33,251 bases of DNA, taken from positions 1 through 33,251 of the forward strand of contig PKTJ01000017.1 of NCBI GenBank assembly GCA_002869205.1. The letters are read 5' to 3'. The translations under genes were made by a program, and so were the position numbers. Each line of letters begins with the position of its first letter. The stretch's first letter is position 1. This document shows positions 12,452 through 28,961 of the stretch, one piece after another. The DNA is from Candidatus Parcubacteria bacterium. Lineage in GTDB: Bacteria > Patescibacteriota > Patescibacteriia > Magasanikbacterales > UBA922. The notes under the pieces are model-generated. The model ran no database searches. It saw only the letters and a list, made by a program, of their open reading frames with translations, and was not told the DNA's origin.

Positions 12452-12531
12452 GAGTATAAAGTTTATAAAGTTAAAAAGTTTATAAAGTATACTTTTTAAC
12501 TTTAGGAACTTTAAAAACTTTTATCTATCAT

Positions 12532-13777: not shown

Positions 13778-14506
13778 TTATTTTGCTAATTCTCCATTCT
13801 GTTTTGCCCACTGACGTTTTTCTACTCTATAATCTTCTTCAATCAACCCATCTCTTACTTTTACAATTCTTTTTGCATGTTCAGCAGTATATCTTTCATG
13901 AGTGACCAAGATAATGGTATTCCCATCCTCATTTAAATCCTGCAAAATTTTCATTACTTGTAAACCAGATTTGGAATCAAGGTTTCCTGTAGGCTCATCA
14001 GCAAACACCACATCTGGTTTATTCACCAAAGCACGAGCAATAGCTACACGCTGTTTTTCACCACCAGACAACTTGTTTGGTGTGTAATCTAGCCTGTGTT
14101 CGAGTCCCACTTTTGTTAATAATTCTGTAGCTCTTTTTACCCTCTCTTTTTTTGGCATATCAGTATAAAAAAGTGGCAACATCACATTTTCAAGCGTTGT
14201 AGATCTGTTCAACAAATTAAAAGACTGAAAAATAAAACCAATTTTTTTACTCCTCATTTCTGCCAACTCATCGTCTTCGAGCTTACTCACATCCTGATTT
14301 TCAAATTGATATGTCCCCGTACTTAGCTTATCCAAAAAACCCAAAATATTCATGAGGGTTGATTTACCAGATCCAGACGGTCCCATAACAGCAACAAACT
14401 CACCCTGATCAATATTCAGATCAATGCCATGAAGAACTTTGGTTATAACCTCTTCATTTTCAAATTGTTTTTTTAGATCGTTTATACGTATGAGAGATGT
14501 GGACAT
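13778..14506 (-). CDS. ABC transporter ATP-binding protein (MacB/LolD-type)
   Basis: Walker A GPSGSGKST, signature LSGGEKQRVAIARAL, Walker B DVVFADEPTGNLDS. Confidence 0.97.
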   Translation of the reverse strand: MSTSLIRINDLKKQFENEEVITKVLHGIDLNIDQGEFVAVMGPSGSGKSTLMNILGFLDKLSTGTYQFENQDVSKLEDDELAEMRSKKIGFIFQSFNLLNRSTTLENVMLPLFYTDMPKKERVKRATELLTKVGLEHRLDYTPNKLSGGEKQRVAIARALVNKPDVVFADEPTGNLDSKSGLQVMKILQDLNEDGNTIILVTHERYTAEHAKRIVKVRDGLIEEDYRVEKRQWAKQNGELAK

Positions 14507-14520
14507 ATAAATAGTTTTAT

Positions 14521-14549
14521 TTGATTCAAAATAAATATAATGATATCAT
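14521..14549 (+). promoter_or_regulatory. Candidate promoter for plus-strand ncRNA
   Basis: TTGATT (14521-14526), 17-nt spacer, TATCAT (14544-14549); alternative TATAAT at 14536-14541. Confidence 0.5.
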
Positions 14550-14559
14550 TAACATAATC

Positions 14560-14744
14560 GGTGTGGGCCGGCGGTGCCCGAGGCTGGTAAGGGGGGTTCC
14601 TTCATCGGAACCTAGCTGGCCGTCAGGCTGCGCGGTTAAGTTCCAACAAAAAAAGAAGAATTATCTTTTGAACAAAAGGAACTGTACACTGCCTGACTGG
14701 CGAAGCCAATGTTGGAGGTTCAATCCCTCCCCGCGGCCCACACC
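14560..14744 (+). ncRNA. tRNA-like structured RNA with giant variable arm
   Basis: Extended acceptor-like helix GGTGTGGGCCG(g)CGG / CCGCGGCCCACACC; U8-G9; D arm CCC-GAGGCTGGTAA-GGG; hairpin GGTTCC-TTCATC-GGAACC; T arm GGAGG-TTCAATC-CCTCC. Confidence 0.7.
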
Positions 14745-14757
14745 CCCGGACTGAGGC

Positions 14758-14781
14758 GCGATCGCTATATTATGCGATTGC
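14758..14781 (+). ncRNA. Hairpin downstream of tRNA-like element
   Basis: GCGATCGC-TATATTAT-GCGATTGC, 8-bp stem with one G-U. Confidence 0.5.
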
Positions 14782-14798
14782 TTCATATAGTCTCACTT

Positions 14799-14857
14799 TG
14801 GGGCGAGATCTCAGATGCACAACCACGATGGTTGTCTATATCCGAGATCTCGTCCCA
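14799..14857 (+). ncRNA. Long two-tier hairpin
   Basis: TGGGGCGAGATCTC / GAGATCTCGTCCCA (14 bp, one G-U) enclosing ACAACCA-CGA-TGGTTGT. Confidence 0.65.
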
Positions 14858-14886
14858 CGGCTCTCAAACAATTCAATTTCTAAATT

Positions 14887-14907
14887 GCGTTTTCAAACGC
14901 TTTTTTT
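14887..14907 (+). terminator. Intrinsic terminator of the plus-strand ncRNA unit
   Basis: GCGTTT-TC-AAACGC followed by TTTTTTT. Confidence 0.75.
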
Positions 14908-14918
14908 ATTTTAAAAAA

Positions 14919-16364
14919 TTATGCTTTCTCCCAATCCTCAACACTCTCCAAATACTCATCTTTTATTTTTTCAAAGTATTCGTGCGTTGCTTCGTATTCA
15001 TTTGGAATTATACCATCAAGAATTGCATCTTCAAGTGCCGTTTTTATTTTACCCACAGTAGGGCCTGGTTTCAGACCACATTCTTGCATAATTTCCTCAC
15101 CACGAACCGGAGACTGAAATGCACGAAGTTTATCTTTTTCCAAAACTTCTTCGATGCGTTTTTCCAAAAGATCATAATTTCTTAAACGTTTATTTAATTT
15201 TTTTGGATTACCAGTAGTAATATCACTACGACAAAGCATAAGAAGGTCATCTAGATTATCTTCTAAATTTACAACAAGACGGCGCACCGGACTGTCAGTC
15301 ACACCTTCATCCATGAGAGCGATTGGTTGTTGATGCCAGCGCACCAAATGTGCAATATACTCTGTGGCATCTTTACTCATACGCAAACGCTTACCAATCT
15401 GACGCACAATCTTTCGTCCCAAATGTTCATGCATATCAAACGCCCATCCACGGCCCTTTATAAAACTCTTTGTACCTGGTTTACCGATATCATGCATAAG
15501 CGCTGCAAAACGTAACAACACCTTGTCACTACGCTCTGCCAAATTATCAACAACACGAAATGTATGGTTAAGATTATCTTTATGACCCTTACCGTATACC
15601 TCTTCCACCCCTGCAAGATCGCACACTTCTGGCAAAAATTTTTGCATAAGTCCTGTGTGATACAGGAGCCACAGACCAATTGAAGGCTGTGGTGTCGCAA
15701 GTAATTTAAACAATTCTTCTTGAATACGTTCAGCAGAAATTATTTCAAGCCGATCTTTGTTTCGTTCAACCGCACTCAACGTTTCTTTTTCAATTTCAAA
15801 ACCGAGCTGCGATGCAAACCGACATGCACGCATCATGCGCAAAGGATCTTCTGAAAATGTTTCATCAGGGTTGAGTGGCGTACGTAGTATTTTTTTCTTC
15901 AAATCTTCTTGACCATGAAATGGATCGGTAATTTTTGAACTCAGACCAGACGCAATTACTTTTCGCGCCATTGCATTGACCGTAAAATCTCGACGTCTCA
16001 AATCCTCTTCCAAACTTGTTGCAATAACTTTTGGTTTACGAGACGCACTATCATACGACTCACTGCGCGCACCTGCAAATTCTATTTCCAACAACTTTTC
16101 TTTTGACCCATCTTCCAATTCTTTGGTAAACACATATCGAGCAGTATCGAAGTCCGGAAATTCCACAAGGCTTCCCTCTCCGTCATATATTTCATCAAAT
16201 TTTTTAGCAAATTCTAACCCAGAACCAACAACAACAAAATCAATATCTTTTTTCTTTGTTATGCCCAAAAGAAGATCGCGAACATATCCACCGACCACAT
16301 ATACGTCGACCCTCTCTTTTTCGACGACGTTGTGAATTGTCTTAAACAACGTCTTTTGGTTCAT
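14919..16364 (-). CDS. cca: CCA-adding enzyme / poly(A) polymerase family with HD domain
   Basis: YVVGGYVRDLLLGITKKKDIDFVVVG, RRRDFTVNAMA, EDPLRMMRACRFASQLGF, RFAALMHDIGKP. Confidence 0.93.
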   Translation of the reverse strand: MNQKTLFKTIHNVVEKERVDVYVVGGYVRDLLLGITKKKDIDFVVVGSGLEFAKKFDEIYDGEGSLVEFPDFDTARYVFTKELEDGSKEKLLEIEFAGARSESYDSASRKPKVIATSLEEDLRRRDFTVNAMARKVIASGLSSKITDPFHGQEDLKKKILRTPLNPDETFSEDPLRMMRACRFASQLGFEIEKETLSAVERNKDRLEIISAERIQEELFKLLATPQPSIGLWLLYHTGLMQKFLPEVCDLAGVEEVYGKGHKDNLNHTFRVVDNLAERSDKVLLRFAALMHDIGKPGTKSFIKGRGWAFDMHEHLGRKIVRQIGKRLRMSKDATEYIAHLVRWHQQPIALMDEGVTDSPVRRLVVNLEDNLDDLLMLCRSDITTGNPKKLNKRLRNYDLLEKRIEEVLEKDKLRAFQSPVRGEEIMQECGLKPGPTVGKIKTALEDAILDGIIPNEYEATHEYFEKIKDEYLESVEDWEKA

Positions 16365-20574: not shown

Positions 20575-20584
20575 CGCGCGTCTC

Positions 20585-21043
20585 GCAGGTGGAGCTGCTA
20601 GGCAAAACGACGTGCTGGCGAAGACTTATATTCGCCATAAGGAGGAATCATGGATGGACGTAACATCCTTCGACCCCTCGTGGGTCTGCTCATTCTCGTC
20701 GCCGTCAGCCTCGCGGCCCACGGTGCATGGAACATTCAACAAGGGGCGGCTTTTGAAGCCGCCACTTCGACGGTGACCTTCACCGACACGAACGCCGACC
20801 AGGCGTGGGCGCACAACGAAGCTCGTGCGAACCAGCTCACCAAGACCTCTACCGCAGGGGTTGTGGAAGTCTGGGTCGCGATCGGCCTCGTGGCCCTCGC
20901 CATCGGGACTTATTACTACCGTCGCAAGGACGGTATCACCCTGCGAGAAATCGCGGCCATGTTCTAGGAGGGCTCGCCTATGGACACGTACGATTCGCGC
21001 GCCGACCTTTCTACGGACGGCGCCACCGGGCAGCTCCACCTGC
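20585..21043. repeat. 14-bp perfect inverted repeat bounding GC-rich cassette
   Basis: GCAGGTGGAGCTGC (20585-20598) and its exact reverse complement GCAGCTCCACCTGC (21030-21043). Confidence 0.85.
20650..20967 (+). CDS. Small two-TM membrane protein, GC-rich codon usage
   Basis: 105-aa ORF preceded by AAGGAGGAATC-ATG; strongly GC-biased third positions; hydrophobic segments at both ends. Confidence 0.7.
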   Translation: MDGRNILRPLVGLLILVAVSLAAHGAWNIQQGAAFEAATSTVTFTDTNADQAWAHNEARANQLTKTSTAGVVEVWVAIGLVALAIGTYYYRRKDGITLREIAAMF

Positions 21044-21060
21044 CCATCTCTCCTATATGA
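20980..21060 (+). CDS. Small ORF MDTYDSRADLSTDGATGQLHLPISPI
   Basis: 26-aa ORF with AGGAGG 7 nt upstream, immediately downstream of the 105-aa ORF. Confidence 0.4.
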   Translation: MDTYDSRADLSTDGATGQLHLPISPI

Positions 21061-21086
21061 ATATATCTATGTTCATAAAGGAAAAT

Positions 21087-27355: not shown

Positions 27356-27434
27356 AAAAAAGTTTATAAAGTTAAAAAGTTGAAAAGTTGAAAGAAAAAA
27401 TACTTTCGAACTTTAAAAACTTTTAACTTTCTAA

Positions 27435-28811: not shown

Positions 28812-28961
28812 AAGTAGAAAAACACCTTTCCTATAAGAAAGTTTAAAAAGTAAAAAGTTTAAAAGTTTATAAAGTTTTGATCAATCTAATCTTGCTTGCT
28901 TTGTAACTTTACGAACTTTTTAACTTTCTAACTAGATATAGTATATCATAATTGTTATAAC

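Follow-up and report, generated by a model that had tools for sequence, protein, structure and literature searches.

A putative non-decoding pseudo-tRNA gene derived from tRNA-Tyr beside the CCA-adding enzyme gene in Magasanikbacteria

In YrlA and bacterial Y RNAs, a tRNA-like module is joined to another structured domain. The RNA described here has a comparable plan, with a tRNA-like module followed by a second structured domain, and it resembles tmRNA in carrying a tRNA-like domain inside an RNA of ~350 nt, but differs from tmRNA in bearing a hairpin at the anticodon position. Both identities were rejected: RF00023 had no match in the window and the genome's real tmRNA lies at C27:926–1333, and neither an Rfam match to YrlA or Y RNA nor a gene for a Ro/TROVE protein was found in the 97% complete assembly. 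Allo-tRNAs and tRNAs of the tRNA-Sec type (reviewed in PMC7609411) share with our RNA a long variable arm and a lengthened acceptor; unlike it, they are compact and decode. A tRNA-Sec assignment was also discarded, the score against RF01852 being 18.3 bits with a gathering cut-off of 47. In Bacillus cereus, the pseudo-tRNA tRNA-Other lies within a larger transcript and is non-functional in translation; its anticodon is that for Trp, and it is charged with lysine only poorly (PMC3399842). Our RNA is likewise a tRNA-derived element within a larger RNA, but it differs from tRNA-Other in its parent, here tRNA-Tyr, and in its large insertion and extended acceptor helix.

The window, by which we mean the whole stretch of 33,251 nt that was analysed, comes from a Magasanikbacteria (Patescibacteria) genome of 1.06 Mb that is 97% complete. 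The structured RNA unit lies on the plus strand with a minus-strand gene on either side, is single-copy in its genome, and has a GC content of 56% in its tRNA-like part compared with 38% for the whole window. The features of the locus are given below, together with the corresponding features of the sister species, the other genome of the genus (G001).

13778–14506, minus strand: MacB-type ABC transporter ATPase gene (Pfam PF00005), divergent from the RNA and outside it
14521–14549, plus strand: promoter-like site, TTGATT-N17-TATCAT
14560–14564, plus strand: 5′ leader GGTGT, pairing with ACACC at 14740–14744 and lengthening the acceptor helix; leader and trailer identical in G001
14565–14574, plus strand: acceptor 5′ strand GGGCC-G-GCGG, forming 9 bp with a bulged G (GGGTCGG in the genome's own tRNA-Tyr)
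14577–14593, plus strand: D arm CCC-GAGGCTGGTAA-GGG, homologous to the tRNA-Tyr D arm, with A14, G15, G18 and G19 retained
14595–14612, plus strand: hairpin GGTTCC-TTCATC-GGAACC; U-A to C-G compensation and loop TTAACC in G001
14622–14697, plus strand: long stem GTCAGGC/GCCTGAC with inner stem AGTTCC/GGAACT, the bulk of the insertion; three both-side changes in G001
14681–14692, plus strand: ACTGTACACTGC, probably homologous to the anticodon loop of tRNA-Tyr, ACTGTAAATCTGC; triplet GTA, GCA in G001
14698–14708, plus strand: Tyr-like variable arm TGGC-GAA-GCCA (GGCG-ATAAAC-CGCC in G001; TGGC-TCC-GCC in the genome's own tRNA-Tyr)
14714–14730, plus strand: T arm GGAGG-TTCAATC-CCTCC, retained in G001 with a bulged G
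14731–14740, plus strand: acceptor 3′ strand CCGCGGCCC, with the discriminator A73 at 14740
14745–14862, plus strand: 3′ domain of two strong hairpins, at about 14748–14793 and 14796–14861
14887–14907, plus strand: intrinsic terminator GCGTTTTCAAACGC-T7
14919–16364, minus strand: tRNA nucleotidyltransferase (CCA-adding enzyme) gene (Pfam PF01743, PF12627, PF01966, PF13735), convergent with the RNA and outside it

A MacB-like permease adjoins the ABC ATPase gene (Pfam, in the window). The helices listed in the first-pass annotation (acceptor-like helix, D arm, hairpin, nested stems and T arm) are all present in the sequence, as are its plausible promoter and its clean terminator, although the promoter-like site is weak taken alone, the pattern occurring at 3 sites in 600 nt against 1.4 expected. 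The sister species has TTAATT-N17-TAACAT at the matching position. U8-G9 stand immediately 5′ of the D arm, and by alignment the elbow and T-loop nucleotides U8, A14, G15, G18, G19, U54, U55, C56 and A58 occur in both species. The whole unit of 351 nt folds at −147.8 kcal/mol (z = −7.0), with none of 100 shuffles as good, and the tRNA-like part of 186 nt has a folding z of −4.9. For the G001 piece alone (179 nt, without the outermost 5′ strand) z is −0.6, no better than shuffles, so that support for the structure in G001 is comparative, not energetic.

The terminator region (14883–14913) is 81% identical to positions 15021–15051 of the CCA-enzyme coding sequence, as if copied. A 94% match to the terminator in G001 (L003/L004) was discarded, being CCA-gene coding sequence instead of the RNA. 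Elsewhere on the plus strand of the window, positions 20575–21070 form a block of about 63% GC, compared with 38% for the window, with inverted repeats GCAGGTGGAGCTGC and GCAGCTCCACCTGC at its flanks, a terminator-like end, a possible 105-aa membrane protein at 20650–20967 and minus-strand genes on both sides; this block looks like a foreign cassette.

When the 5′ and 3′ parts of the RNA were scored against the 39 own tRNAs, tRNA-Tyr came first in both species (62 for the window RNA, next best 50; 69 for G001, next best 62), with shuffles reaching about 30 ± 4. This scoring displaced our first assignment of the D arm as tRNA-Ser-like. The alignment with tRNA-Tyr runs through the D arm (CGGTtCCCGAG...GG..AAGGGGG), the variable arm (CTGGC...GCC), the T arm and the GGCCCA end. 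We also built a covariance model from the two sequences and searched 86 genomes of the order and 381 of the class. The best non-self matches included tRNA-Tyr genes, at 31.9 bits (G112, the top match), 25.2 bits (G025) and 17 bits (G019), but these matches are weak, and tRNA-Ile and tRNA-Thr genes score nearly as high. Other matches from the class search proved to be ordinary tRNA genes, namely a tRNA-Thr and tRNA-Ile loci in which the match spans more than one tRNA. Among the features of bacterial tRNA-Tyr that are recognised besides the anticodon are G1-C72 and the variable arm (PMC5370408); our RNA retains both of these as well as A73, and its likeness to tRNA-Tyr (GUA) extends to the D arm, the T arm and direct sequence similarity. 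It differs from tRNA-Tyr in an insertion of ~85 nt, in an acceptor of 9 bp that has a bulge and is continued by the pairing of leader with trailer, and in an unconserved anticodon. The parent is likely a class II tRNA-Tyr, judging from these scores and alignments. The earlier proposal of a tRNA mimic or highly derived tRNA was thus right, and the scoring and model matches specify tRNA-Tyr as the parent.

The same homology changes the reading of the insertion. In tRNA-Tyr nothing but the anticodon arm separates the D arm from the variable arm; in our RNA that interval holds a hairpin of 6 bp and, after a linker, a stem of 7 bp that encloses a second stem of 6 bp and an A-rich, hypervariable loop. 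The ~101-nt region that the first-pass annotation called a giant variable arm is therefore probably mislabelled: tRNA-Tyr homology puts the variable arm at 14698–14708, just 5′ of the T arm, and most of the 101 nt would belong to an insertion that parts the D arm from the variable arm, the ~85 extra nucleotides falling between D arm and anticodon. Two readings of this insertion are possible. One, which follows the first-pass annotation in taking the first hairpin as the anticodon arm, treats the remainder as inserted 5′ of the variable arm. The other takes the long stem as a possible enlarged form of the anticodon arm, since ACTGTACACTGC on its 3′ strand is close to ACTGTAAATCTGC of tRNA-Tyr. 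We think it more likely that an insertion following position 26 begins with the first hairpin than that this hairpin is an anticodon arm; its loop counts 6 or 8 nt, compared with 7 nt in a functional tRNA. On both readings there is no conserved usable anticodon, the loops being TTCATC in the window and TTAACC in G001, or the triplets GTA and GCA.

Both species have a canonical tRNA-Tyr beside tRNA-Thr, and the genome's tRNAs cover all twenty amino acids without the RNA. The spacer between tRNA-Thr and tRNA-Tyr on G000:C50 has tens of matches in each of the two genus genomes and is a short dispersed repeat, found in the window at 12458–12521, 27359–27385 and 28837–28863. The intact RNA is called as a tRNA by neither ARAGORN nor RF00005. 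Because its anticodon is lost and a separate canonical tRNA-Tyr exists, the RNA does not appear to work in translation. We consider its tRNA-Tyr origin and its apparent loss of decoding to be well supported.

The only ortholog found lies at the same locus in G001, 5′ of the same ABC gene; the G001 CCA gene is at the end of another contig, an arrangement consistent with that in the window. The comparison covers the first ~185 nt, where identity is about 76% (76.5%), since the G001 contig ends just after the tRNA-like domain, short of the 3′ half (14745–14880). In the helix alignment, each of the 39 pairs is a standard one in both species; both partners have changed in five pairs and one partner in two. 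One of the compensatory changes, G-C to A-U, is in the acceptor helix. Changes affect 12 of 78 paired columns (15%) and 30 of 81 unpaired columns (37%). With 12 changes placed at random, the probability of keeping all pairs is about 1e-5 and that of five double-changed pairs about 3.5e-5, values that are optimistic in that the helices were drawn after both sequences were in view; column shuffling, a weak test with two sequences, equals or exceeds what was observed in 12 trials out of 500. That all pairs are kept at such a probability argues that the RNA structure is very probably under selection, on the evidence of one species pair.

We propose, as a probable though far from certain reading, that a duplicated tRNA-Tyr has become an independent, non-decoding pseudo-tRNA gene of about 345 nt whose product would act as a protein-binding scaffold or decoy. 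The noncoding RNA would have retained the D loop/T loop elbow, the Tyr-type variable arm and the G1-C72/A73 acceptor end, while decoding would be blocked by the ~85-nt insert, the acceptor helix extended by leader and trailer, and the drifting anticodon. Its tRNA-like 5′ domain would be bound by RNase P, the CCA-adding enzyme and possibly tyrosyl-tRNA synthetase, and once bound would stabilise the transcript or serve as scaffold or decoy; a specific regulatory function would reside in the loop of the insert and the hairpins of the 3′ domain. The candidate partners follow the retained parts: TyrRS would fit the identity elements, and both the CCA-adding enzyme and RNase P the elbow and acceptor half. 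We infer that the RNA is expressed and has a protein partner and a target. By analogy with tRNA-Other (PMC3399842), we think that the tRNA-like domain may be a protein-binding, stabilising element of a larger regulatory RNA.

The main rival is that the locus is a decaying tRNA-Tyr pseudogene, a functionless duplicate gathering insertions. The RNA does evolve far faster than the real tRNA-Tyr, with 76.5% identity between species compared with 97.6%, and it is confined to one genus. Its acceptor, a bulged helix of 9 bp in the window, is irregular in G001, as is the T stem, and there are odd tRNA-like sequences in the same slot in relatives and another 3′ of tRNA-Ala in its own genome. However, a decaying duplicate sits poorly with the absence of any broken pair among 39 at 28% divergence, with five compensatory changes, and with the retention of a promoter-like site and a terminator in a small genome. 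We regard decay as unlikely, though a serious contender.

As the first-pass annotation had suggested, we compared the intact RNA with Rfam, at gathering and relaxed thresholds, and ran ARAGORN on it; there was no convincing family match and no tRNA call at the normal threshold. The covariance model found no true homologue beyond the genus among the 86 order and 381 class genomes, and BLASTN against the family beyond the genus gave only matches to the A-rich loop or short chance matches. Phages and plasmids had no match to the RNA, and its D-arm pattern was absent from viral contigs. The idea of a new RNA class thus holds in a narrow sense, for an RNA restricted to one genus, present in both of its genomes and belonging to no Rfam family, and not in any wider one. 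T-loop motifs elsewhere in the genome gave 42 matches, about 7 of them unexplained compared with 12 for a reversed control, a number within chance; one of them has the look of a degenerate tRNA. Just 3′ of tRNA-Ala, at G000:C18:29500–29600 (L236), is a degenerate tRNA-like sequence with a T arm and 9-nt acceptor strands, in which a short-loop hairpin replaces the anticodon arm.

In genomes of the family and the order, we compared the slot that adjoins the downstream end of the CCA-adding enzyme gene. Most of the 61 slots are short or occupied by ordinary genes, but tRNA-like units or T arms stand on the opposite strand in nine genomes (G000, G001, G002, G006, G015, G017, G018, G024 and G025), several of them of odd architecture. 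The G017 slot has two T-arm hairpins, the G006 unit an anticodon loop of ~25 nt, and the G024 unit an anticodon stem of ~14 bp and no D arm; tRNA-like units occur in G025 and G002, three tRNA-like genes with a minihelix in G015, and a degenerate tRNA-like unit in G018. At L244 and L201 of G018, the region 3′ of the CCA-enzyme gene is GC-rich and structured, with two diverged repeats of ~90 nt, GGTTCCAGCTAGCTACGACGTACGAG and GGTTCCGGTCAGCTATGACGTACGAG. The CCA-enzyme gene of G060 is followed, about 1.2 kb further downstream, by a sequence that ARAGORN calls as a tRNA with a CTA anticodon and names tRNA-Pyl (L233, 1204–1278, minus strand). A T-arm scan of 29 loci with both flanks found nine arms downstream on the opposite strand, three weak ones on the same strand and, over 37 kb of upstream sequence, none.

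In tRNA, it is the elbow and acceptor half that CCA-adding enzymes recognise. Together with the nine genomes and the T-arm scan, this lends some weight to the idea that the RNA regulates the adjacent enzyme as a decoy or sensor, one of several opposite-strand RNAs downstream of this gene in the family. Yet the slot is short and empty in most genomes of the family, and its units resemble different tRNAs, cannot be aligned with one another outside the T arm and in some cases look like ordinary tRNA genes. The slot may be a tRNA-gene hotspot or a positional class of tRNA-derived RNAs; a plain hotspot accounts for the observations equally well, and we hold regulation of the enzyme to be quite improbable.

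Weaker still is the suggestion of a split or intron-bearing tRNA spliced to a working tRNA-Tyr, which we judge very improbable. With the inserts deleted by hand, ARAGORN does give two tRNA readings of the window RNA, tRNA-Tyr(GTA) among them, but splicing would have to take out two separate pieces, and ARAGORN run so as to permit introns yields no call at the normal threshold. The homologue of the anticodon is GTA in the window and GCA in G001, and both species own a normal tRNA-Tyr. RF00028 (group I intron) has no match in the insert, while the score for a true group I intron tRNA of this genome is 89.6 bits. That positive control is a tRNA gene at G000:C19:1–363, minus strand (L189), whose anticodon loop is split by the intron. 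The G001 copy is not called as a tRNA by ARAGORN even with the insert removed, and so may be drifting.

A non-decoding pseudo-tRNA remains the reading we prefer, and very few functional pseudo-tRNAs are known in bacteria. It is conceivable, if improbable, that Magasanikbacteria have repeatedly turned tRNA genes opposite the 3′ end of the CCA gene into fast-evolving non-decoding RNAs that act on the enzyme or on tRNA maturation, with the window RNA as one member; the forms in such a positional class would include a giant insertion, a missing D arm, tandem minihelices and an enlarged anticodon loop. If our reading is true, the locus would be a clean case of a tRNA recruited to a non-decoding role and kept by compensatory change in a streamlined genome of ~1 Mb. 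A non-decoding tRNA would then adjoin a gene whose enzyme acts on tRNA ends, and its relatives in the same slot would form a testable set.
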